Source: Syntrophothermus sp. UBA1445
GTDB taxonomy: Bacteria; Bacillota; Syntrophomonadia; Syntrophomonadales; DTU052
NCBI GenBank assembly: GCA_002329495.1
Contig: DCTH01000013.1
Location: 10,345-24,205, forward strand
DNA length: 13,861 nucleotides
Reading direction: 5' to 3'
Made by a program: the position numbers and the translations under genes. Below the pieces are notes generated by a model. That model made no database searches. It had not been told where the DNA came from and saw only the letters and a program-made list of their open reading frames with translations. Shown here piece by piece: positions 1 through 11,911 of this stretch. Within the stretch, counting starts at the first letter, position 1. Every line of letters starts with the position of its first letter.

Positions 1-38
1 CTGGTGTTTCGATACTTGTAGCCTTCAGCTAACGTGAA

Positions 39-46
39 GAGGAAGG
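39..46 (+). promoter_or_regulatory. Ribosome binding site fixing the first gene's start
   Basis: The sequence GAGGAAGG lies 8 bases before the ATG at 55. An in-frame GTG at 34 would add seven residues, but it precedes this site and has no Shine-Dalgarno sequence of its own. The ATG at 55 is therefore the better start for the phosphatase gene. Confidence 0.7.
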
Positions 47-54
47 TTAAGCGT

Positions 55-1419
55 ATGGACTCTTTGATAGACCTATTTATAAGCCTTATCAACAGTATGG
101 CGGTAATAATTGTAGTTGCTTATGTAATTACCCGCAGTCATTTCTACACGGAAATACTGGAAAAGAAACTCACTCCCGTCAACCAGCTTCTTCTGGTGAT
201 GATCTTTGGTGTCTTCTCCATCTACGGGACCCTCAGCGGGATCAAGGTCTTTGATGCCTACGCCAATATCCGCGACCTGGGTCCGGCTATCGCCGGACTT
301 ATTGGAGGGCCCTGGGTGGGGCTGGGTGCCGGATTGATTGGAGCAGCCCATCGGTTCCTGCAGGGGGGATTCACCGAACTGGCCTGCTCCACAGCAACCA
401 TTGTAGCGGGCCTGATGGCCGGTCTGGTGTACAAGTGGAAAAGAGGCGAGTTCATCGGGGTCAGCGGGGCAGTAATCTTCGCGATTGTGGTGGAACTCGT
501 TCACATGGGCTTGACCCTGCTGCTCAGCCGCCCCTTCGACCAGGCGGTGGTGGTGGTTAAAACCGTAATTGGACCCATGGTGGTTGCCAATGCTATGGGA
601 ATGGGAGTCTTCGCCTTCATAATCTCCAATCTGATGAAAGAGAGGGCTACCGAGGCCGAGAAGAGGCAGATTGAGGGAGAACTCCTGGTGGCCCGGGAGA
701 TTCAGATGAGTATTGTACCCCGTATCTTCCCGCCCTTCCCCGAACGATTCGAATTTGAGATCAATGCGGTTCTGGAACCAGCTAAAGAAGTTGGCGGCGA
801 CTTTTACGACTTTTTCTTTATTGATGACAATCATCTCTTTTTTGTAATTGGAGATGTTTCCGGTAAGGGTGTACCGGCTTCTCTGTTCATGGCCGTCACC
901 AAGACCTTATTCCGGGTTGAGGCCAATTTGGAGACTGGTCCCCAGGATGTGATGTCCCGGGTAAATAACGCCTTGTGCCGCGATAATGATACGGGGATGT
1001 TTGTAACTGTTTTCTGCGGAATACTGGATACCGGTACCGGGCGGGTCCAGTATGCTAACGGAGGCCATAACCCTCCTTATGTGGTGCGCCGTAATGGCCG
1101 TATCGAGAACCTGTCAGCAGGGGGAGTGGCTCTGGGGATAATTGAAGAGGTGAGCTACAAACCGGTTGAAATCGTATTAGACAAAAATGAGCTACTGGTG
1201 ATGTTTACTGATGGAGTGACGGAGGCCATGGACAGGAAAGGTAACCTGTTTACCGAGGACAGGTTGATTGAAACCTTAGCGAGCTATCAGGGGATCGGGG
1301 TCGAAGAGACTACCGAAAATATACTGTCTGCGGTTCGCAGTTATGCGGCTGGTGCGGCCCAATCCGATGATATTACCATTCTGGTTCTTAAATACCTGAT
1401 GAGCGGTATTAGTGATTAG
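55..1419 (+). CDS. Membrane SpoIIE/RsbU-type PP2C phosphatase with LytS-like 5TM sensor
   Basis: Predicted 454-residue membrane-bound serine phosphatase that would dephosphorylate STAS anti-sigma-factor antagonists. Residues about 1-195 form five to six hydrophobic segments. They carry the 5TMR-LYT signature seen in LytS and YpdA/BtsS sensors, including N-x-R-D-L-G, GGPWVGLGAGLIG, HRF-x-x-GGFT and a following ACSTATIVAGL stretch. A short helical linker (about 196-215) leads to a complete PP2C domain. It has the metal-binding motifs GGDFYD (D249), GDVSGKGVPA (D267), the GGHNPP loop, FTDGVTEA (D386) and QSDD (D438/D439), so it should be active. It is first in a run with a STAS protein and an RsbW-like kinase, its natural substrate and opponent. 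LytS-type sensors elsewhere respond to pyruvate or related overflow metabolites; the ligand here is unknown. Confidence 0.93.
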   Translation: MDSLIDLFISLINSMAVIIVVAYVITRSHFYTEILEKKLTPVNQLLLVMIFGVFSIYGTLSGIKVFDAYANIRDLGPAIAGLIGGPWVGLGAGLIGAAHRFLQGGFTELACSTATIVAGLMAGLVYKWKRGEFIGVSGAVIFAIVVELVHMGLTLLLSRPFDQAVVVVKTVIGPMVVANAMGMGVFAFIISNLMKERATEAEKRQIEGELLVAREIQMSIVPRIFPPFPERFEFEINAVLEPAKEVGGDFYDFFFIDDNHLFFVIGDVSGKGVPASLFMAVTKTLFRVEANLETGPQDVMSRVNNALCRDNDTGMFVTVFCGILDTGTGRVQYANGGHNPPYVVRRNGRIENLSAGGVALGIIEEVSYKPVEIVLDKNELLVMFTDGVTEAMDRKGNLFTEDRLIETLASYQGIGVEETTENILSAVRSYAAGAAQSDDITILVLKYLMSGISD

Positions 1420-1491: not shown

Positions 1492-1827
1492 TTGTTAAAA
1501 ATAAGTGAGAGGAAGCAGGGTGATATCCTGGTACTGGGACTTGAGGGGAGGCTGGATGCCAGTACGTCAAGCACCCTGGAAACGCGTCTGTCAGGTTCGA
1601 TTGCGAGTGGACAAATCAAAATAGTCTTGGACTTTTCATCCCTGGATTACATAAGCAGTGCTGGACTGAGAGTTCTCCTCATGGGTGCCAAAAGGACAAA
1701 AAATGCCAGTGGCAAACTCGCCCTTGCGGGCCTCAAGAGTCATGTCAGAGAAGTATTTGATATTGCCGGATTTAGCTCCATCCTGTCAATCTTTTCGTCA
1801 CCGGACGAAGCTACTAATTCCTTTTAA
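1492..1827 (+). CDS. STAS-domain anti-sigma-factor antagonist (RsbV/SpoIIAA-like)
   Basis: A 111-residue single-domain STAS protein. In partner switching such proteins bind and sequester an RsbW/SpoIIAB-type kinase when unphosphorylated, and are inactivated when the kinase phosphorylates a conserved serine. The fold-defining parts are visible: an N-terminal strand with L-E-G-R-L-D-A (about 17-23), the central LDFSSLDYISSAGLRVLL motif (46-63) holding the phosphorylatable serine (S55 or S56), and the C-terminal V-R-E-V-F-D-I-A-G-F helix. The start is TTG at 1492, fixed by a near-perfect AAAGGAGG at 1476-1483 with an 8-base spacer. It sits between its probable phosphatase and its probable kinase, so it is likely the core switch element of the cassette. 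Confidence 0.92.
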   Translation: MLKISERKQGDILVLGLEGRLDASTSSTLETRLSGSIASGQIKIVLDFSSLDYISSAGLRVLLMGAKRTKNASGKLALAGLKSHVREVFDIAGFSSILSIFSSPDEATNSF

Positions 1828-1906: not shown

Positions 1907-2338
1907 ATGAATCTTGATATGATCGAGCAGGTATTCCCTGCAAATGTTGAGGAGGTTCCCGTGGTCGTAGAACACGTGTCTGGTTTAGCCGAATTGGCGG
2001 GTGTTCATCCCAAGCGAATTATGCATCTCGAACTGGCAGTAGAGGAAGCGGTAATGAATATCTGCAGTTATGCCTATGAGAAGCCACCCGGCACGGTAAC
2101 CGTTCGGGTTTCAAGTGAGGACGACCGCCTTACGGTGCAGCTTATTGATGAAGGGGTTCCATTCGACCCCCTGTCCCTGGAAGAGCCCGACATCAAAGCT
2201 GCGCTGGAAGACAGGAAGATTGGAGGACTGGGGGTCTTACTGATTCGCCGGGTAATGGATGAGGTTCATTATCAACGGAAAGACGGTTTGAACATCCTGA
2301 CTATGGCCATGCTTATGAATCAACAACCGGAACAGTGA
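1907..2338 (+). CDS. RsbW/SpoIIAB-like anti-sigma serine kinase (HATPase_c_2)
   Basis: A 143-residue cytoplasmic GHKL-type ATPase. Its N-box helix reads ELAVEEAVMNICSYAY (about 42-57, with E46/E47 and N51), the G1 box is IDEGVPFDP (80-88) and the G2 box is KIGGLGVLLIRRVMDEV (104-120), followed by H-Y-Q-R and G-L-N-I-L. This is the standard RsbW-family layout, and the length is usual. These kinases phosphorylate STAS antagonists and, when free, hold a sigma factor or another target inactive. The start ATG has GGAGGG at 1895-1900 with a 6-base spacer. No sigma gene lies downstream, although classic cassettes place one there, so the bound target must be encoded elsewhere or be a different kind of protein. 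Confidence 0.9.
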   Translation: MNLDMIEQVFPANVEEVPVVVEHVSGLAELAGVHPKRIMHLELAVEEAVMNICSYAYEKPPGTVTVRVSSEDDRLTVQLIDEGVPFDPLSLEEPDIKAALEDRKIGGLGVLLIRRVMDEVHYQRKDGLNILTMAMLMNQQPEQ

Positions 2339-2452
2339 CCATCAGTGGTAGGCCGAAATCAGGGCCGATAGCCGATATTCAGGAAGGCGGAATTGTCGGC
2401 TGGATGGCTTTGGTGTTTAGGTTTTTCCGGCGTTAGTTAGGGGGAGGTACTA

Positions 2453-5400
2453 ATGTTATTTCCTAAAGGAATCCGGTTACTAATCGGTTTTCTGACAGTT
2501 GGCTTTATGATGTTTGGCATCCTGATTCCCGGTGCGGCATGGGCCGCTCCTTCCAGTCAGGGGGATCAGTTGCGGACCGTGATATCTCAAATGACCCTGG
2601 AGGAAAAGGTCGGGCAGATGTTTATGGTTGATTTCCGGCAGTGGGACGGTAAGAATGTGATGGAGATCAACCCGGACATTGAAAAGGTAATTAAGAAGTA
2701 CCGCCCAGGCGGGGTTATCCTCTTTAAAGAGAATGTAGTTAATACCGATCAGACGGTGCGGCTGGTGGATCAGTTGCAGAGAGCTTCCGGAAGCGTGCCG
2801 CTCCTGATGGCCATTGACCAGGAGGGGGGACTGGTGGCCCGGATCGAATATGGAACCATGATGCCCGGCAACATGGCTTTGGGAGCAATTGACTCCCCGA
2901 AGGACGCCATGCTGGCCGGTGAGATAACGGGACGTGAGCTCAAGGCCCTGGGGATCAACGTTAACCTGGCCCCGGTGGTGGATGTCAACATTAACCCGGA
3001 TAACCCGGTAATTGGGGTGCGATCATTCGGGTCTGATCCCGCCAGGGTTGGCGAACTGGCGGTTGCGTACATAAAGGGGCTTGATGCTGCGGGAGTAGCC
3101 TCTGCTGCCAAACATTTCCCCGGTCATGGAGATACCGCGGTAGATTCTCATTTGGCCCTGCCTACCTTGCCACATGACCTTAACCGCCTGCAACAGGTGG
3201 AACTGAAACCATTCCAGATGGCTATCGACCAGGGAGTGGACATGATACTTTCAGCTCATGTCACCTTCCCGGTTATTGATAACACCAAGGTGAAGTCGCT
3301 GAAGGACGGTCAGGAGATTTCGATTCCGGCCACCCTTTCTGCACGGGTAATGACCGACCTCCTGCGCAACCGGATGGGGTTTACGGGAATAATCATCACC
3401 GATGCCCTGAAAGGGATGAACGCAATCAATGATAATTTCGGCACCGAAGAGGCCGTAGTTGGTGCGATAAAGGCCGGGAGTGACATCATCCTCATGCCCG
3501 CCGATCTGGATAAGGCATATAACGCGGTGCTGGGAGCGATAGAGAAAGGAGAGATTCCAGAGAGCAGGATTGATCAGTCCGTCGAGCGGATCCTGGCCCT
3601 CAAGGTAAAACGGGGTATCATCCAAATCGGTGAAAATGGAATTAAACCGGGAGCGGGCATCACGACCGGACTGGACAGCAAACTCCAACAGGCTCGTGAG
3701 GTAGTGGGTCGCTCGTCCAATCTGCGCGTGGGACAGGAACTGGCGGAGCGAGCGGTCACCCTGCTGAAAAATGATAATAACCTCCTGCCGTTTGAATTAC
3801 GCGACCAGTCGCGGATCGTGATCCTGGCACCCTATGAGGAATACCTCGAACCCATGGTGCAAACCCTGCAGGAGATGGTTAAGGCGAGGGCCATCACCGG
3901 GGTGGATATAAAAGCATTCGCTTACACCGAGATAAAGACTCTGACAGCGGAACAGAGAGCCGCTATTGATGCTGCTGACTACGTGGTGTTGGGAAGCTAC
4001 AGCAGTAATACGGCCACCCGAAATCCCGGCCAGCACTGGATACCTGATTTTGTCTCGGAAGTGGTCGATTATACCAACCTGATTAACCGGCCTACCGCGG
4101 TTATGGCAATCCGTAATCCTTACGACATCATGTACCTACCGAAAGCCCAGGCTTATCTCTGCGTGTATGGACGGGCAGCGGGGCCCAATACCCCCGCCGG
4201 GATTAAAGCGATTTTTGGGGAGATCAACCCGCAGGGGAAACTGCCGGTAGCCATACCCACCGCAGACGGGAAAAGCATTCTTTATGCTCGGGGCCATGGA
4301 CTTACTTATAAGACCTCAGCTACGGTCCGGAGTTGGCAGTATGAATTGATAAAGAAGCTCCGGGATAAAAATTCGGGCTTTACCGACACCTTGAATCACT
4401 GGGCGGCAAAGAGCATCAACCGGTTGAAGCTGATCGGACTGGTGAAGGGTTACCCCGATGGCAGCTACCGCCCGGGCAACCTGGTCAGTCAGAAGGATGC
4501 GGCAACGGTGGCCATGAAACTGGCGGATCCGCCACTGAATCAGTCGCTGGTTAACATAACGTCACAGCAGCCGGCCACCCGTCTGCAAGCCGCCTTGTGG
4601 CTGGCGGATATGGCGGGATTACAGCCAGTTGATAGCATTGCTCCGCCATTTAAGGACCTGTCCGGGGTCCCTTCCCAGTACATTGGATACCTGCAGGCTC
4701 TCTATCAGCAGGGGGTTATATGCGGCACTCCGGCGGGGAAGTTTGAACCGCAGCAGCCCGTGACCCGGGCGGAGCTGGCGGTAATGACTGAGAGGATTCT
4801 GCAGATCGGCAAGGAACCCAACCTCTCACCGGATGTGTGTCCAGAGTTGCATGCCCTGCGGATTCATGTGCAGGAGCAGCTTGACTCCATGGACCGGGAT
4901 CTGGCCCTAGCTGCCTACAAGATCTCCCAGACCGGCCTGACCGGGCAACAGACGCGTTCGATTCTGAATCGACTGGCTGCCGACCATGAGGGAGTATTCG
5001 ACACCTGTACAGTTAACCGCCAGGGGATCATGACTACGGTTGAACCCGCTATTTATAAGGAATTTGAGGGGTCGGACATCAGTGACCAGGAACAGGTGGT
5101 AAGACTCCAACAAACGAAAGCCCCGGTACTCAGCAACGCTTTTATCGCCGTGGAGGGCTTTGCCGCAGCCGACCTGGAAAGACCGGTCTTTTCGTCTGAC
5201 CGGGAACTGGCAGGGTCCGTCAGCATGCTGCTCGAACCCGGGAAGTTGTTTACCCCCTTTACGAGATCCTTCCCGGAATTTGAGATGATGGTGGTGCAGA
5301 AGGATGGCTTCATTCTCTTTGACAGCGATCCGACCCAGATTGGTCGCAACGCCTTTACCGATCCGTTGTACCAGTCATTCCCCGATCTGCTGAATCTGTG

Positions 5401-6367
5401 CCGGCAGATAACCGCTAAGCGATACGGCAAGGGCACTTATTCGTTCTGGGACGAGAATCGGCTGCAGGTGGTAGAAAAGACAGCATATTGGAGTACCGTG
5501 GGGCTTCATGGCACCGATTGGCGGGTAGTGATGATTCCCAGAGTTGCGGTGAATACTGGTCAGGGTGATAAACCGCAGGTGATGGTGGAGGAGCCGCGGC
5601 AGGACCCGGTCAAACCTACTCCCGGCAACAGCAGTACGGCCCACGGACCAGTCGTCCCGGTCGGGCAAGATACTGCTTACCAGGTTTCATTGATCGATGC
5701 CCTTCTCATTGGGCTATATGATGGTACGGTATCTATCGGGGAACTGAAACAGCACGGAGATATGGGTATTGGAACCTTTAACCGTTTGGACGGCGAGATG
5801 CTGGCCCTGGATGGGATCTTTTACAAGATGAGATACAACGGGCAGGCCATTCCCGTGCCGGATAGCGAGACTACGCCCTTTGCGGCGGTGACCTTTTTCA
5901 ATACCGATCAAAGGTTATCACTGGCGGATATCGGGAGCTATAACCTGCTGCAGGATAAACTAAAGAGCTTGATAACCAATCCCAACATCTTTTATGCCAT
6001 TCGTATTGACGGGGAGTTTGACTATGTCAAGGCGCGTTCCGTGCCACCCCAGGAGAAACCATATCCGCCGCTCAGCCAGGTGACAGATAAACAACCTACC
6101 TTTGAATACCACCAGGTAAAGGGAACGATAGCTGGCTTCTGGTGTCCGGATTACGTGGAAGGTATTAATGTACCTGGTTTCCACCTGCACTTCATAACGG
6201 AAGACCGTACTTCGGGAGGGCATTTATTGGAGTGCCGGCTTACCAGGGGAACGGCCCTGCTGGATTTAACACCCGAACTGCACCTTAACCTCCCCACCAC
6301 CGCTGATTTTGCCGGTCTTGATTTGACACCGGACCGGGGAGGGGAACTGGAGAAGGTTGAGAAGTAG
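2453..6367 (+). CDS. Secreted fusion: GH3 beta-N-acetylhexosaminidase, SLH, Cache and acetolactate decarboxylase
   Basis: One open frame of 1304 residues, with ATG 5 bases after GGGGGAGG (2440-2447). Residues 1-32 are a signal peptide ending A-W-A-A. Residues about 40-395 are a NagZ-type GH3 domain with IDQEGG (121-126), KHFPGHGDTAVDSH (220-233; Asp231/His233 match the general-acid dyad) and ITDALKG (nucleophile Asp317). Residues about 430-620 are the GH3 C-terminal domain. SLH segments lie at about 643-691 and 733-783, with a partial copy between them. Residues about 800-1030 resemble an extracellular Cache sensor (DGFILFDSD, QIGRNAFTDPLY, TDWRVVMIP). A Pro-rich linker leads to a complete alpha-acetolactate decarboxylase (about 1076-1290) with zinc ligands His1244, His1246 and His1257, plus Thr1108, Glu1115 and Arg1195. 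Expected roles are release of GlcNAc from wall muropeptides and conversion of acetolactate to acetoin outside the membrane. It sits inside the partner-switching operon. Confidence 0.9.
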   Translation: MLFPKGIRLLIGFLTVGFMMFGILIPGAAWAAPSSQGDQLRTVISQMTLEEKVGQMFMVDFRQWDGKNVMEINPDIEKVIKKYRPGGVILFKENVVNTDQTVRLVDQLQRASGSVPLLMAIDQEGGLVARIEYGTMMPGNMALGAIDSPKDAMLAGEITGRELKALGINVNLAPVVDVNINPDNPVIGVRSFGSDPARVGELAVAYIKGLDAAGVASAAKHFPGHGDTAVDSHLALPTLPHDLNRLQQVELKPFQMAIDQGVDMILSAHVTFPVIDNTKVKSLKDGQEISIPATLSARVMTDLLRNRMGFTGIIITDALKGMNAINDNFGTEEAVVGAIKAGSDIILMPADLDKAYNAVLGAIEKGEIPESRIDQSVERILALKVKRGIIQIGENGIKPGAGITTGLDSKLQQAREVVGRSSNLRVGQELAERAVTLLKNDNNLLPFELRDQSRIVILAPYEEYLEPMVQTLQEMVKARAITGVDIKAFAYTEIKTLTAEQRAAIDAADYVVLGSYSSNTATRNPGQHWIPDFVSEVVDYTNLINRPTAVMAIRNPYDIMYLPKAQAYLCVYGRAAGPNTPAGIKAIFGEINPQGKLPVAIPTADGKSILYARGHGLTYKTSATVRSWQYELIKKLRDKNSGFTDTLNHWAAKSINRLKLIGLVKGYPDGSYRPGNLVSQKDAATVAMKLADPPLNQSLVNITSQQPATRLQAALWLADMAGLQPVDSIAPPFKDLSGVPSQYIGYLQALYQQGVICGTPAGKFEPQQPVTRAELAVMTERILQIGKEPNLSPDVCPELHALRIHVQEQLDSMDRDLALAAYKISQTGLTGQQTRSILNRLAADHEGVFDTCTVNRQGIMTTVEPAIYKEFEGSDISDQEQVVRLQQTKAPVLSNAFIAVEGFAAADLERPVFSSDRELAGSVSMLLEPGKLFTPFTRSFPEFEMMVVQKDGFILFDSDPTQIGRNAFTDPLYQSFPDLLNLCRQITAKRYGKGTYSFWDENRLQVVEKTAYWSTVGLHGTDWRVVMIPRVAVNTGQGDKPQVMVEEPRQDPVKPTPGNSSTAHGPVVPVGQDTAYQVSLIDALLIGLYDGTVSIGELKQHGDMGIGTFNRLDGEMLALDGIFYKMRYNGQAIPVPDSETTPFAAVTFFNTDQRLSLADIGSYNLLQDKLKSLITNPNIFYAIRIDGEFDYVKARSVPPQEKPYPPLSQVTDKQPTFEYHQVKGTIAGFWCPDYVEGINVPGFHLHFITEDRTSGGHLLECRLTRGTALLDLTPELHLNLPTTADFAGLDLTPDRGGELEKVEK

Positions 6368-6416: not shown

Positions 6417-6764
6417 ATGGGCAGCAGTATCACAATACACAGGGAACAGATCCAGGATTTCAGGGAGCTCAAAGTAACCGGCCGACTGGATTCCGGTACT
6501 ACTCCTCAGTTGTCACAGGCATTGGAAGAAGAGGTTAAAGCAGGCCACAACCGGGTTATGCTGAACCTGCTGGAGGTTGAGTTTTTGAGTTCCGCTGCTA
6601 TCAGGGTATTGCTTCAATATTACAAGGAATGTCGCAAGCGTCAGGGATTCCTGGTGGTTCAGCCCTCTGCAGCGGTGCGTTCGACCCTGACCATGGTAGG
6701 TATGACTGATTTGTTTTCCAGCCCGGCGCGGATTAATAAAAAGGTGGTTGATATTGATATATAG
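6417..6764 (+). CDS. STAS-domain protein with atypical switch motif
   Basis: A 115-residue STAS protein following the secreted fusion gene by 49 bases. The ribosome site is AGGGAAGGA (6401-6409) with a 7-base spacer. The N-terminal T-G-R-L-D-S motif and the central V-E-F-L-S-S-A-A-I-R-V-L-L segment (about 54-66) identify the family. The phosphorylatable serine (S58 or S59) is kept. However, the usual glycine of S-S-A-G-L is alanine followed by isoleucine, and the usual D-x-S before it is L-N-L-L-E. It may bind the RsbW-like kinase with altered affinity or respond to a different kinase. It is probably cytoplasmic and cotranscribed with the genes on both sides. Confidence 0.86.
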   Translation: MGSSITIHREQIQDFRELKVTGRLDSGTTPQLSQALEEEVKAGHNRVMLNLLEVEFLSSAAIRVLLQYYKECRKRQGFLVVQPSAAVRSTLTMVGMTDLFSSPARINKKVVDIDI

Positions 6765-6865
6765 GCAAGAAACCACCACAGCTCAGCACTGGATAATGGT
6801 GAATGAGCTTTTATGGGGATCGTAAGAACACCAGTCAATTTCACAGCTTACTACAATCGGCCGAT

Positions 6866-6874
6866 AAGGAGAGG
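6866..6874 (+). promoter_or_regulatory. Ribosome binding site deciding the acetyltransferase start
   Basis: AAGGAGAGG lies 9 bases before ATG 6884. The longer frame opening at ATG 6803 lacks any Shine-Dalgarno match and would add a 27-residue N-terminal tail not expected for the family. Confidence 0.7.
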
Positions 6875-6883
6875 ATAACCAAT

Positions 6884-7744
6884 ATGAAACGGTTTCTTGA
6901 TGGGATGCTGAACGTGCGCGCCATGGACCGGAATGAAGTACAGCTCGCTATTGACTGGGCAGCCGCCGAAGGGTGGAATCCTGGTATTCATGATGCGGAG
7001 TGTTTTTATTTCGCTGATCCCCATGGTTTTTTCCTGGCCGATTATGAGGGACAACCAGTCGGATGCGTTTCCGCCGTCCGTTATGATAACACCTTCGCGT
7101 TTGTAGGACTCTACCTGGTTAAGCCGGAGCTTCGTGGTCAGGGGATTGGCTCGGCCCTGGCTGACCGGGTTTTTAAATACCTTGAAGGGGTGGAGTCGAT
7201 CGGCAATGATGCGGTGATTGAGCAGCAGGATAACTACACCCGTTACGGGTTCCGTATGGCCCACCGCAACATCCGTTACCGGGGGAATAGTATGAACTGT
7301 GAGCCGGAATCAACAGGCATCGTGGAGTTGGGAGAATTCTCATTCTATGAACTGCTGCGTTATGACCGGACGATGTTTCCGACTCCCCGTACCCAGTTTT
7401 TGCGGTGCTGGATCAGTCAGCCCGGCGGCACGGCATTGGGTTTTACCCGTGGTCAAGGACTACTGGGGTATGGAGTCATGAGGAAGTGCCGTCAGGGATA
7501 TAAGATCGGGCCGCTTTTTGCTGATAATGAAGAGGTGGCAGAGGCTTTATTCATTGCATTGACTGCCCGGGTCGGGAAAGAGGAGTTTTACCTGGATATC
7601 CCGGAGCCCAATCCAGGAGCGATGGCCCTGGTTAAAAGGCATAACCTGGAGCCGGTCTTTGAGACGGGACGCATGTTCATCGGGAAACCACCGGTCATTC
7701 CGATGTCCAAATTGTTCGGCATCAGCACCTTCGAACTGGGCTAA
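6884..7744 (+). CDS. GNAT acetyltransferase with C-terminal YitH-like domain
   Basis: A predicted 286-residue cytoplasmic N-acetyltransferase using acetyl-CoA (or another acyl-CoA). The N-terminal GNAT fold runs over residues about 10-130 and carries the acyl-CoA pyrophosphate loop R-G-Q-G-I-G-S-A-L (about 84-92), preceded by the usual strand V-G-L-Y-L-V-K-P-E-L. The C-terminal part, about 160-286, resembles the Acetyltransf_18/YitH-type extension, with K-I-G-P-L-F-A-D-N and E-P-V-F-E-T-G-R-M-F near the end. Its substrate cannot be read from the sequence. It sits between two STAS genes in the partner-switching operon, so it could modify a component of that system, or acetylate an amino sugar or wall-derived substrate; both are inference. 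An upstream ATG at 6803 is possible but lacks a ribosome site. Confidence 0.85.
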   Translation: MKRFLDGMLNVRAMDRNEVQLAIDWAAAEGWNPGIHDAECFYFADPHGFFLADYEGQPVGCVSAVRYDNTFAFVGLYLVKPELRGQGIGSALADRVFKYLEGVESIGNDAVIEQQDNYTRYGFRMAHRNIRYRGNSMNCEPESTGIVELGEFSFYELLRYDRTMFPTPRTQFLRCWISQPGGTALGFTRGQGLLGYGVMRKCRQGYKIGPLFADNEEVAEALFIALTARVGKEEFYLDIPEPNPGAMALVKRHNLEPVFETGRMFIGKPPVIPMSKLFGISTFELG

Positions 7745-7791
7745 GTGGTATGCTTCGAATGCAAACTGTTCCGGGAAAGGAGTAGATACAT

Positions 7792-9120
7792 ATGAAAATC
7801 ACCTCCAGACTTGAAGATCAGACTCTGGTGCTTAGTCTGCAGGGCAGGTTGGACGCGTTTCATGGTGGTGAACTGCAAAAGGTTATTGACCAGAACCTTC
7901 GCAACCAGCAGGTTATATACGTGGTTGTGGATATGTCGGGGGTCGATTACCTGAGCAGCGCCGGCCTTCGCGTTATCCTGGCCCTGTACAAGAACCTTCG
8001 TAAGCGGGATGGGGTTCTGACCCTGGCCGGACTGCAGGCTTACTGCCGGGACGTCATTGAAATGGCTGGATTTGCACCGACCCTTCCCCAATTTGCTTCA
8101 GTTGGCGAGGCTCTTCAGTTCTGTGACCAGGTCATAACCGAGAAGCGGCACCTGGAGACCTGGGATGAACTGGAGACTATTAATGCTGAGTGCGGTACCT
8201 TTCGGATTATCCCCGGCAGCCAAGAACCGGGAGCAGTCCTGGTGATGGGCGATGTAAAGGATGTTTTGTATTCTCGGGTTTCGGTGGACCATCTATGTTC
8301 CAAGAAATTCTCGGAGACCGAGTATTCTATCGGTTTAGGTGGGCTGGGCAATCAGCTTGAGGACTACTTCCCGATTATGGGGGAGATGATGACCATAGGC
8401 GGAACCATGGTCTGGCTGCCTACCGATGGCCACGATACCCCGGATTTTCTGATTCCCCAAAAGGATACCGGGCAGGTGACCCTGCGCACCGGTTTCAATG
8501 TCTCCATCAGCGGGGGTTTTAATGAACTGATGATGTTTGACAGCTGCGAAGAGGGAGGCACCACCATAACCACCCTCTACCGGACTCTGTTTCAGATAGC
8601 TCGCCGCCGGCGGCCTGATTTTCACGGGGTCATCGGGCTGGCGATTCGAGCCCAGATGTCATCCGTTTTCGGATCGGGTATCTTGAAATCACCTATTGTG
8701 GATTTTAAGCCCGCTAATGGAGAGATGGTAACTGCACCCTCGAATACGGCTGAGTGGTTTGAGTTTGACCATACTCCCCGTCATACTGATGTGACCGGAC
8801 TCATCTGCGGCGTAGGTGCGGATCTGACTGCTGACCTTTCCTACTACGACAAGGACCAGTTCGATGCCGTATTCTACATTAACCCGGCCAACGTTGGCGG
8901 TAACGACTTGCAGCTGCACAACCATGGAGTTGTCTTCAGTAAGCTGCAGATGGCACCAAAGGCGGTAAATATCGAGAAAGAGATACGCCAGGTAGTGGAC
9001 AACGGCGAGTTCATCGATATGCGGCATCTCCTGGACAGCTCGGCCATAAGCCGCGGATTTCTGGGGGTAAGCTATATTCAGGAATTCCGTCCTGATCCCA
9101 AAGGAAGGCGGGGTATCTGA
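7792..9120 (+). CDS. STAS domain fused to a large unrecognised C-terminal domain
   Basis: A 442-residue protein. Residues 1-112 are a canonical STAS domain with L-Q-G-R-L-D-A, VVDMSGVDYLSSAGLRVIL (45-63, switch serine S55 or S56) and R-D-V-I-E-M-A-G-F. After a linker (about 113-135) comes an unrecognised domain of about 290 residues. It is rich in Gly and Asp and has conserved-looking blocks such as GLGGLGNQLEDYFPIMGEMM (181-200), M-V-W-L-P-T-D-G-H-D-T-P-D-F-L (206-220), G-G-F-N-E-L-M-M-F-D and N-P-A-N-V-G-G-N-D-L-Q-L-H-N-H-G. No transmembrane segment or signal peptide is visible. A distant PP2C-like fold was considered, but its metal motifs are not evident. AAAGGAG (7776-7782) fixes the ATG. 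As last gene of the cassette it is a plausible output effector whose activity is gated by the STAS domain. Confidence 0.85.
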   Translation: MKITSRLEDQTLVLSLQGRLDAFHGGELQKVIDQNLRNQQVIYVVVDMSGVDYLSSAGLRVILALYKNLRKRDGVLTLAGLQAYCRDVIEMAGFAPTLPQFASVGEALQFCDQVITEKRHLETWDELETINAECGTFRIIPGSQEPGAVLVMGDVKDVLYSRVSVDHLCSKKFSETEYSIGLGGLGNQLEDYFPIMGEMMTIGGTMVWLPTDGHDTPDFLIPQKDTGQVTLRTGFNVSISGGFNELMMFDSCEEGGTTITTLYRTLFQIARRRRPDFHGVIGLAIRAQMSSVFGSGILKSPIVDFKPANGEMVTAPSNTAEWFEFDHTPRHTDVTGLICGVGADLTADLSYYDKDQFDAVFYINPANVGGNDLQLHNHGVVFSKLQMAPKAVNIEKEIRQVVDNGEFIDMRHLLDSSAISRGFLGVSYIQEFRPDPKGRRGI

Positions 9121-9295: not shown

Positions 9296-9478
9296 TTATT
9301 TACCGGCCGCAGCCCTTTCGGCGGCTTCTTCGGCGCGCAGATCCTTGCGCAGGATTTTGCCGGTGCCGGGCTTGGGGAGGGCTTCGCGATACTCGATGGC
9401 TCAGGGATACTTGTAGACCGACATTTGTTCGCGGGCCCAGGCCACCAGTTCTTCTTCGGTAACTTTTCCAACGTAATG
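9296..9478 (-). pseudogene. C-terminal remnant of an acyl-CoA synthetase (AMP-binding family)
   Basis: Reading the minus strand in one frame gives 60 codons plus a TAA stop. They match the C-terminal end of fatty-acid or aromatic acyl-CoA synthetases: GKVTEEELVAWAREQM, then V-Y-K-Y-P, an in-frame TGA where Arg is usual, then A-I-E-Y-R-E-A-L-P-K-P-G-T-G-K-I-L-R-K-D-L and a charged tail. The catalytic-lysine motif P-K-x-G-T-G-K is preserved. Upstream of His-Tyr-Val-Gly the match to the family stops and another TGA lies in frame four codons further up, so the adenylation domain (about 450 residues) is absent. The TGA probably arose by CGA to TGA. This is a decayed, non-functional fragment. The good conservation of what remains suggests recent loss. 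Confidence 0.85.
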
Positions 9479-9652
9479 TTTCTCCCATATTCACTCCATA
9501 GGTTTGAATCTCATGTTACACCCTTCTTAGCATTGATACTGCTCTGAAATCCAACAACTTGTACACATAACACCCACGACATATTGCGTATGGTGGCTGT
9601 TCCGGAAGCATCAGGCGTTTGTGGAATGGAAGTCTGCGGGCCTGTGACTCTG

Positions 9653-9682: not shown

Positions 9683-9765
9683 TAGTGTAAGATGGTTTTA
9701 GTGGTATGGTTTTTTGGGTTAGGTGGGGGTGTGGTTAAGTGCAGATGCACACACAAATTGGCTAC

Positions 9766-9772
9766 GGGAGGG
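9766..9772 (+). promoter_or_regulatory. Ribosome binding site supporting a TTG start for the peptidase
   Basis: GGGAGGG is followed after 6 bases by TTG at 9779. The longer frame from ATG 9692 has no Shine-Dalgarno sequence and adds a Gly/Val-rich 29-residue stretch ahead of the hydrophobic anchor. Confidence 0.65.
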
Positions 9773-9778
9773 ACGATT

Positions 9779-11467
9779 TTGCAGAGCTACTGGAAATTTC
9801 TTTTGGGGTTGGTGTTACTGATAGTTTTGGGGGTGATTGCTTTTAATCAGGTTCCAACAATGAAAACAACCAGCGAATTTGAATCATTCCTGGCCCAGCA
9901 CGAGGCTCAGGTGAGCTCACTAACCAAAGAAGAGAGTCTGGCCTATGTAAAGGCCACGGTTAGCGGTAATGAGGCGGATTATCAAAAGGTATCCGAGTTG
10001 TCGCTCGCGGTAGATAAGATCTATGCCAATAAGGAGGATTTCCAAAAGTTAAAAGCATGGAAGGAATCCAACCGGATTAAGGATCCCCTGTTAAAGCGGC
10101 AGCTGGATCTCCTCTATCTCGACTACCTGGGTAACCAGATTGACGAAAAGAAATTGGAAGAGATGATCAACCTGCAGACCAGGATTGAACAAAAGTTCAA
10201 CACCTACCGGGTTGAGGTTGATGGGAAGAAACTGACTGATAATGAGGTTCTCGAAATCCTTAAAACCTCCACTGATAATCAAGAACTGGAGCGGGTGTGG
10301 AAGGCCAGTAAAATAATCGGGGAACTGGTAGCTCCGGATCTTTTGATCCTGGTTAAGTTGAGGAATGAGGCTGCGCGGGAACTCGGCTTTGACAACTTTC
10401 ACCAGATGCAGCTCAGTTTGAGCGAGCAGGACCCTGAGGAGATTGAAGCTTTGTTTGATGAGTTGGACGAATTGACCCGGGATGCGTTCGCACGTTATAA
10501 ACAGGAGATGGATATCTTACTTGCCCAGCGGTATAAGATTGCGCCGGAGGACTTGAGGCCCTGGCATTACCAGAACCCATTCTTCCAGCAGGCACCCCAA
10601 CTGTATGACGTGAATCTGGACCAATTCTATGCCGATCAGGATCCAGTCGAATTGATCAGGCAGTATTATGCTGGTCTGGGTATGCCGGTTGATGATTTAA
10701 TCAGCAGAAGCGATCTCTACGAGAAACCGGGCAAGTACCAACATGCATACTGTATCGATATCGACCGGGAGGGCGACACCCGGGTAGTGGCTAGTATCAA
10801 GCCTAATGCTCTGGGCCTCTACACTCTGCTGCACGAGTTTGGACATGCGGCCTACTTCAAATACAGCGACAGTGATATGCCCTGGCGGTTGCGATATCCG
10901 GCTCACACCTTCACTACCGAAGCGGTAGCCATATTGTTTCAGGATATGCAGTCCAACTCGGTGTGGATTCACGAGATGACTGGCACTTCCGAAGTAGCGG
11001 CCCAACGTATTAGGGAGGCGTGTCAACGCCAAACAGTTGTGAATGCCCTGGTATTAAGCCGCTGGATACAGGTGATGTATCGTTTCGAAAAAAGCCTGTA
11101 TGAAAACCCGGATCAGGACATTAACAAGCTGTGGTGGGATCTGGTGGAAAAGTATCAGATGCTGAAACGTCCCGAAGGGAGAGATCAGGCGGATTGGGCT
11201 TCCAAGATTCACATCACCTCTTACCCTGCATACTATCACAATTACCTGCTGGGGAACCTCCTGGCCTGTCAGTTAAAACACTATATCGACACGGAAGTTC
11301 TGAAAAGTGACAGCCCCGCCTATATTGGCCAAACCGAGGTAGGGGACTACCTGAGAGAAAAGGTATTTAAACCAGGTCTGCGATACCACTGGAATGAGAT
11401 GATTGAAAAGGCCACCGGCGAAAAACTGACCCCCAAATACCACGCCGAACAGTACGTCGGCTCGTAA
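9779..11467 (+). CDS. Membrane-anchored M2/M3-type zinc oligopeptidase
   Basis: A predicted 562-residue metallopeptidase of the gluzincin type (MEROPS clan MA). Counting from the TTG start, residues about 4-24 are a single hydrophobic segment (K-F-L-L-G-L-V-L-L-I-V-L-G-V-I-A), a signal anchor or uncleaved signal peptide with no lipobox cysteine, so the enzyme probably faces the outside. The catalytic motif is HEFGH (His352, Glu353, His356), with the third zinc ligand Glu381 in T-T-E-A-V-A-I, 25 residues after the second His. Family features upstream are R-N-E-A-A-R-E-L-G-F-D-N-F and L-R-P-W-H-Y-Q-N-P-F-F-Q. Spacing and text fit the bacterial M2/M3 oligopeptidase-like group; M2 versus M3 cannot be settled here. 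Expected role is cleavage of short peptides. It has no obvious functional link to its neighbours. Confidence 0.88.
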   Translation: MQSYWKFLLGLVLLIVLGVIAFNQVPTMKTTSEFESFLAQHEAQVSSLTKEESLAYVKATVSGNEADYQKVSELSLAVDKIYANKEDFQKLKAWKESNRIKDPLLKRQLDLLYLDYLGNQIDEKKLEEMINLQTRIEQKFNTYRVEVDGKKLTDNEVLEILKTSTDNQELERVWKASKIIGELVAPDLLILVKLRNEAARELGFDNFHQMQLSLSEQDPEEIEALFDELDELTRDAFARYKQEMDILLAQRYKIAPEDLRPWHYQNPFFQQAPQLYDVNLDQFYADQDPVELIRQYYAGLGMPVDDLISRSDLYEKPGKYQHAYCIDIDREGDTRVVASIKPNALGLYTLLHEFGHAAYFKYSDSDMPWRLRYPAHTFTTEAVAILFQDMQSNSVWIHEMTGTSEVAAQRIREACQRQTVVNALVLSRWIQVMYRFEKSLYENPDQDINKLWWDLVEKYQMLKRPEGRDQADWASKIHITSYPAYYHNYLLGNLLACQLKHYIDTEVLKSDSPAYIGQTEVGDYLREKVFKPGLRYHWNEMIEKATGEKLTPKYHAEQYVGS

Positions 11468-11477
11468 GATAGGAAAC

Positions 11478-11508
11478 ATGCATCACGGGGACAGTCCCCG
11501 TGATGCAT
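11478..11508. repeat. Perfect palindrome with GGGGACAGTCCCC core
   Basis: A 31-base element with 15-bp perfect arms around a single central A; its core reads ATCACGGGGACAGTCCCC (11482-11499). It begins 11 bases after the peptidase stop and ends 27 bases before the likely cupin start. The same 18-base core recurs exactly at 11854-11871. It may be a transcript-end hairpin, a REP-like repeat, or both. Confidence 0.85.
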
Positions 11509-11853: not shown

Positions 11854-11911
11854 ATCACGGGGACAGTCCCCAAGATGTAAAATGCAGCATGGGGACTGTC
11901 CCAGTGATTCA
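11851..11911. repeat. Long inverted repeat made of two GGGGACAGTCCCC palindromes
   Basis: Two 21-base arms (11851-11871 and 11891-11911) pair with a single mismatch around a 19-base loop. Each arm contains its own GGGGACAGTCCC-type palindrome, so it can form one long hairpin or two short ones. It includes the cupin stop codon and ends 60 bases before the thiolase start. It may end transcription of the cupin and insulate the next unit. No T-run follows. Confidence 0.85.

Follow-up and report, generated by a model that had tools for sequence, protein, structure and literature searches.

A 13,861-nucleotide stretch of DNA from Syntrophothermus sp. UBA1445 (contig DCTH01000013.1, positions 10,345 to 24,205; here called the window) carries one gene that joins a NagZ-like GH3 part to an alpha-acetolactate decarboxylase (ALDC). 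Its product is probably a single exported, wall-anchored protein with two independent enzymes. The signal peptide would export the protein, the SLH region would anchor it by binding a wall polymer, the GH3 part would trim terminal N-acetylglucosamine (GlcNAc) from wall or chitin fragments, and the ALDC at the cell surface would turn acetolactate leaked from cells into acetoin. The two reactions would be independent of each other, with the enzymes co-displayed on one scaffold. Export would keep the ALDC from the cytosolic acetolactate needed for valine and leucine, and leaked acetolactate would be cleared before its oxidation to diacetyl.

A five-part architecture in a single frame had been proposed from the DNA letters alone, and a Pfam search bore it out: GH3 N, GH3 C, SLH, the PF22309 sensor domain, and a complete AAL_decarboxy domain each passed the cut-off (Table 1). 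The frame is preceded by a good ribosome binding site (RBS), AGGGGGAGG, identified by sequence inspection. Residues 7-25 form the sole membrane-like segment of the protein (mean hydropathy 2.27; next-best segment 1.43), with an AWA-A site directly after it. On hydropathy and charge, rather than a dedicated program, the N terminus is a putative signal peptide, and export is predicted. Two SLH repeats were matched in the window protein, with a degenerate third recognized by eye; its relatives P0002 to P0004 likewise had two (E 0.001). The host genome has matches above the cut-off to PF04230 (pyruvyl-transferase, CsaB-type), yet in two pieces across assembly gaps.

Table 1. Positions of the fusion gene, its parts, and adjacent genes in the window
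Feature	Position	Strand	Basis or remark
RBS of fusion gene, AGGGGGAGG	2439..2447	+	read directly from letters
Fusion gene, 1,304 aa: signal peptide, GH3, SLH, dCache, linker, ALDC	2453..6367	+	one open frame; Pfam
Signal-peptide-like N terminus, residues about 1-33 (hydrophobic 7-25, then AWA-A)	2453..2551	+	hydropathy only
Two-domain GH3, YbbD/NagZ type, residues 34-625; putative dyad D231/H233, nucleophile D317	2552..4327	+	Pfam; 3bmx alignment
SLH region, residues about 640-776: two matched repeats, degenerate one between (by eye)	4370..4780	+	Pfam
dCache domain lacking a membrane anchor, residues about 796-1040 (PF22309 match 809-929)	4838..5572	+	
Pro-rich linker, residues 1041-1072, 7 Pro in 32	5573..5668	+	52% identity to P0002
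Complete ALDC domain and free C-terminal tail, residues 1073-1304	5669..6364	+	PF03306, TIGR01252, residue alignment
RsbU-like phosphatase with 5TM-5TMR_LYT membrane sensor (possible regulator)	34..1419	+	
STAS anti-anti-sigma protein (RsbV-like)	1492..1827	+	
RsbW-like anti-sigma kinase, 114 bp ahead of fusion	1907..2338	+	below RsbW equivalog cut-offs
Second STAS protein, 49 bp past fusion	6417..6764	+	

The ALDC part scored 276.3 bits against PF03306 (cut-off 25) and 268.7 bits against the TIGR01252 equivalog (cut-off 180.65). It aligned without gaps over 230 residues (E 6.2e-64) to structure 4bt2, which we take to be the ALDC of Brevibacillus brevis. The original prediction had placed a set of decarboxylase residues at the spacing of the Brevibacillus enzyme, and all six fell on the predicted 4bt2 chain positions: Thr1108, Glu1115, Arg1195, His1244, His1246, and His1257 align to 58, 65, 145, 194, 196, and 207, respectively. 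Glu1303 reaches position 253 by the same offset, a few residues beyond the end of the printed alignment. These positions (T58, E65, R145, H194, H196, H207, and E253) are presumably the catalytic and metal residues of the Brevibacillus enzyme. The T, E, R, H, H, H set was kept in 58/58 ALDC rows compared (57 distinct) and the tail Glu in 57 of them, the exception (P0125) being clipped by the local alignment. The C-terminal module is confirmed by these comparisons as a complete ALDC domain, with predicted decarboxylase activity.

The GH3 part matched Bacillus subtilis YbbD/NagZ (3bmx) across both domains (E 1.6e-152). D231, H233, and D317 of the fusion correspond to D232, H234, and D318 of YbbD/NagZ, the last being the residue altered in the 4gyj chain; we take D231/H233 to be the catalytic dyad and D317 the nucleophile. 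Active-site residues of both enzymes are thus in place, as originally claimed, by alignment with 3bmx and 4bt2. Two GH3 domains, the Asp nucleophile, and the KH(F)PGHG-x4-D-x-H motif, presumably the mark of the NagZ-type GH3 family, are all present. The single-domain NagZ equivalog (NF003740/PRK05337) was not reached (187.2 bits; cut-off 207). By sequence, the GH3 part is NagZ-like, of the YbbD/NagZ two-domain type and distinct from the NF003740 equivalog, with predicted activity.

Between the SLH region and the ALDC lies a region with the dCache fold, for which the structure model of Cache alone was good. Among solved structures, its closest kin is Dret_0059 of Desulfohalobium retbaense (5ere), for which cytosine binding is listed; the match spans residues 333-563 of 568 in that chain. 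The domain is probably a small-molecule-binding module. The features of a Cache transmembrane receptor were absent: the protein has no output domain by Pfam and no transmembrane-like segment beyond the signal peptide by hydropathy. A model of the SLH-Cache-ALDC portion (684 residues; mean pLDDT 64.7, pTM 0.41) was too weak for domain arrangement, and the linker between Cache and ALDC had low confidence.

Homologues carrying the junction, on whose existence the original prediction had staked itself, were found. P0002 (1,298 residues; longest contig 390 kb) was 77% identical to the window protein (P0001) end to end and contained all the same domains, with GH3 C scoring just below the cut-off (28.5 versus 31 bits). 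P0005 has a GH3-Cache-ALDC arrangement without SLH. The fragment P0128, on a 1.3-kb contig, begins inside Cache, passes through a recognizable linker, and enters ALDC. Because P0002, P0005, and P0128 come from other contigs and carry the same Cache-ALDC join, we conclude that the join is real. Between P0001 and P0002, ALDC was the best-conserved part at 88% identity, ahead of SLH (78%), GH3 (77%), and Cache (74%), with the linker lowest at 52%; P0128 was 63% identical to the window protein over 93 Cache residues, 47% in the linker, and 84% in ALDC. A drifting linker beside a steady ALDC looks like the pattern of constraint on a working module, as judged from percent identities and not from a rate test.

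Close relatives have the same backbone and lack the decarboxylase. P0003 (18 member sequences; 88% identity in GH3) and P0004 (80% in GH3) share the GH3-SLH-Cache backbone without ALDC, ending 24 and 22 residues, respectively, from the start of HGTEWR, the last conserved Cache motif, which is the expected start of the linker. P0006 also has the backbone without ALDC, and the sensor domain is present in all six proteins (P0001 to P0006). Among the 120 matches listed, ALDC occurred in three (window included) and PF22309 in six. The GH3 tree was (P0005+,(P0002+,(P0004-,(P0001+,P0003-)))), where plus and minus denote the presence and absence of ALDC and each branch was starred. Monophyly of the four fused ALDCs cost no likelihood (p-AU 0.53). 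The simplest account would be that ALDC was gained once and then twice lost, or split off as a gene of its own.

The fusion is rare in the genomes scanned. Among 63 genomes of the class, with at most ten candidates per genome scored, it was found only in the genome of the window (G000); ALDC occurred in 3/63. Of 398 genomes of the phylum, at least 87 gave matches with an E of 1e-60 or lower, G000 being the sole one to match in both the GH3 and the ALDC part; these counts are a floor from at most two scored candidates per genome. When named genomes were scanned with ALDC as the query, two relatives came up: L001, where ALDC is free-standing, and L002, where no frame of at least 150 residues was listed. 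Each part of the fusion is known, as is exported ALDC (from Brevibacillus); the combination appears new as far as the open-license literature shows. The accessible text of that literature, searched for the architecture or for an exported ALDC and including PMC4836417, PMC8694187, PMC3543383, PMC12020853, and PMC10466699, contains no description of the fusion.

ALDC was also found on unrelated exported proteins. A search for long ALDC proteins returned at least nine from 2,118 candidates; it missed P0005 and so was not exhaustive. CuAO_N1-ALDC fusions were found in G033, G431, and P0225, an M3 peptidase-ALDC fusion in P0121, and ALDC-LysM-SBP_bac_3 fusions in P0122 to P0127. A signal-like N terminus was called by rule in P0121, P0122, P0125, and P0225 and by eye at loci L024 and L066. 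The ALDC tree grouped the M3 rows with the LysM rows and set the CuAO_N1 rows on a separate branch. The CuAO_N1-ALDC frames lie at L024 1039-2193 and L066 6232-7386, the L024 copy being flanked by SLH-like frames; long acidic Ala/Glu-rich spacers were seen in P0122, P0124, and P0125, those inspected of P0122 to P0127. Among the 119 listed ALDC rows after P0128, 118 were free-standing and one (P0225) was fused to CuAO_N1. A signal-like N terminus was present in 104/119, and 55 of these 104 had a lipobox-like motif by a crude rule. Because most rows are signal-like and other exported chassis exist, export seems to be a habit of this ALDC branch and fusion one of several ways of holding the enzyme at the surface. 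Since P0003 and P0004 end at the linker start and unrelated exported chassis carry ALDC, the domain behaves as a plug-in module.

In the host genome, which is 88% complete in 259 contigs, no ALDC other than that of the fusion was found. One acetolactate synthase match (TIGR00118) lies beside ilvN-, ilvC-, and ilvD-like frames, named by reading their sequences, and is predicted to serve the valine/leucine route. With the synthase in an ilv cluster and the ALDC predicted to be exported, acetolactate is expected in the cytosol and the ALDC outside. A scan for acetoin dehydrogenase E1 gave one PF00676 row covering 64/300 positions of the model in a 636-residue frame (21.3 bits alone, 22.1 with neighbors; cut-off 22). 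The size of this frame makes another thiamine enzyme likelier. According to PMC10466699, diacetyl arises spontaneously from acetolactate under aerobic conditions. In PMC4836417, proton consumption is proposed for the ALDC of an acidophilic archaeon; this is another possible benefit, though proposed for the cytosol. In PMC12020853, a Bacillus ALDC is listed under the cell-free liquid phase, with its location given as unknown.

Partner-switch groups stand on both sides of the fusion gene, at 34-2338 (RsbU/V/W-like) and 6417-9120 (two STAS proteins with a GNAT protein between). Since RsbU/V/W-like genes precede the fusion and a STAS gene follows it, we infer only that partner-switch control is possible. 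The gene at 7792-9120 encodes a 442-residue protein with an N-terminal STAS domain followed by about 330 residues for which neither Pfam nor NCBIfam gave a match at E 0.001. At 9692-11467 lies an ACE/M3-like (M2/M3-like) peptidase with an N-terminal membrane-like segment; an M3 peptidase is likewise fused to ALDC in P0121.

One alternative is misjoining of the window, or a contig from another organism, and several observations could be read that way. The contig has N runs (55 bases and several of 2) to the left and right of the window. The DUF815 and VanW-like genes, which are separated here by about 15.6 kb of contig C37 that includes the window, adjoin in G001 of the same genus and have one acyl-CoA-synthetase-like frame between them in G003. 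PF22309 occurred in 1/63 class genomes, and the single match to the M2/M3-like peptidase among the remaining 62 reached just E 8.7e-4; these absent or poor matches suggest horizontal gain of the stretch, or loss in others. An artefact is nonetheless a highly improbable explanation. The DUF815 gene just ahead of the window was 69% identical to that of G001, 66% to that of G003, and at most 49% to those outside the genus (short pieces included), and flanking genes on both contig ends had 61-89% matches in G001 or G003 (antisense frames left out). Within the window, which contains no N, a minus-strand remnant of an acyl-CoA-synthetase-like gene (9353-9526) has the ends without the middle and is 78% identical in DNA over 183 bp to the G003 gene, the fuller copy at the corresponding site (L063 5328-7085). 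Because this remnant of the G003 in-between gene lies in the window, the window belongs in the DUF815-VanW interval. Window composition correlated with the host genome at r 0.759, versus 0.64-0.75 for four 13.8-kb chunks of that genome compared with its remainder, 0.672 for same-genus loci, and 0.24-0.53 for eight loci of other genomes. The palindromic repeat GGGGACNGTCCCC, present in the window at 11478-11508 and 11858-11872, had 23 copies over 17 host contigs, these two included. Among 21 genomes it had 0-1 copies in the four nearest relatives and was also frequent in two more distant ones (15 in G021 and 16 in G030). On composition, repeat, flank synteny, shared remnant, and an independent full-length homologue (P0002) with the whole architecture, mis-assembly or a foreign contig was rejected as a likely reading.

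The remaining alternatives concern function. In one, the dCache domain would bind a nucleobase, an amino acid, a carboxylate, or a similarly small ligand and thereby tune GH3 or ALDC, with acetoin made under a particular condition as a surface signal or buffer under Rsb-like partner-switch control. The fold, its closest solved kin with listed cytosine binding, its retention in all six proteins (P0001 to P0006), and the RsbU/V/W-like genes running into the fusion gene fit such gating. We nonetheless regard it as unlikely: the fusion lacks both an output and a membrane domain, Cache is retained in P0003 and P0004 although ALDC is absent there, and a faster-diverging, low-confidence Cache-ALDC linker does not favor allosteric contact. 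It is also unlikely that the ALDC domain takes a different 2-hydroxy-3-oxo acid as its substrate or plays a structural or binding role. Apart from the ilv-cluster match, no acetolactate synthase of a dedicated fermentative kind was seen, and the PF00676 row is partial, which would suit another substrate; the TIGR01252 cut-off passed by far and the conservation of all seven catalytic and metal residues speak for acetolactate. A single catabolic route coupling wall or chitin sugar release to acetoin formation has in its favor both active sites in one polypeptide. We consider it very unlikely, as the two reactions have no shared intermediate by established biochemistry, the backbone lacks ALDC in P0003, P0004, and P0006, and ALDC occurs without GH3 in three other chassis. 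A functional connection between releasing sugars from peptidoglycan and making acetoin, at which the original prediction hinted, is therefore unsupported. Absence of ALDC from P0003 and P0004, the faster-diverging linker, and recurrence on unrelated exported proteins argue for modular co-display over a pathway.

Several points weigh against independent co-display at the wall by an inherited fusion. Wall-anchored SLH proteins usually have three repeats, and two were matched here. The stored P0005 sequence begins within GH3 and therefore displays no export signal. The ALDC label required three changes on the GH3 tree, a count as low in 500/500 shuffles, so it was not more clustered than shuffled labels, and repeated gain of ALDC fits that tree too. 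A free, quick ALDC tree search put P0005 apart from the other fused ALDCs, on an unresolved branch, making a second, independent capture possible. Because the genome is 88% complete, another ALDC or synthase may be missing, and the PF00676 frame could conceivably be an acetoin dehydrogenase E1. Leakage of acetolactate from the host is an assumption, and without an oxidant, which may be missing in an anaerobe, diacetyl would not form.

Standard teaching places acetoin formation in the cytosol, as a branch of fermentation. If its predicted location holds, the fusion would let a microbe do acetoin chemistry on its own surface. A wall-anchored ALDC, with no second copy found in the genome, together with the module on several other exported chassis, would make surface acetolactate chemistry a recurring theme. 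A bolder proposal, which we consider unlikely, is that in some bacteria acetoin formation has moved from cytosol to wall, where a surface-anchored, dCache-gated enzyme would make acetoin from acetolactate for extracellular signaling or self-detoxification at sites of wall remodeling, with the same exported decarboxylase on several unrelated surface proteins. The fusion offers a concrete protein for asking why some bacteria export ALDC and would add a soluble, anchored use of the dCache sensor domain.

Each part of the fusion has a known counterpart. The ALDC of Brevibacillus brevis (4bt2), a secreted enzyme, has the same seven catalytic and metal positions; it is free-standing, whereas the ALDC of the window is the C-terminal module of a 1,304-residue putative wall protein. 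Bacillus subtilis YbbD/NagZ (3bmx, 4gyj) shares both GH3 domains, the dyad, and the nucleophile, but YbbD carries the name of a lipoprotein, and SLH, Cache, and ALDC are all missing from its solved chain of 642 residues. The Paenibacillus-type GH3-SLH beta-N-acetylhexosaminidases (P0029 and many listed rows) also combine GH3 with SLH repeats; in contrast to the fusion, they have about 750 residues and listed domains without Cache or ALDC. In Dret_0059 the dCache part presumably comes after a solute-binding part, whereas that of the window protein lies between wall anchor and ALDC. Finally, the fusions in P0121, P0122 to P0127, and L024/L066/P0225 tie ALDC to other modules, as in the window protein, but on other chassis, with ALDC first in the LysM proteins and last in the window protein.

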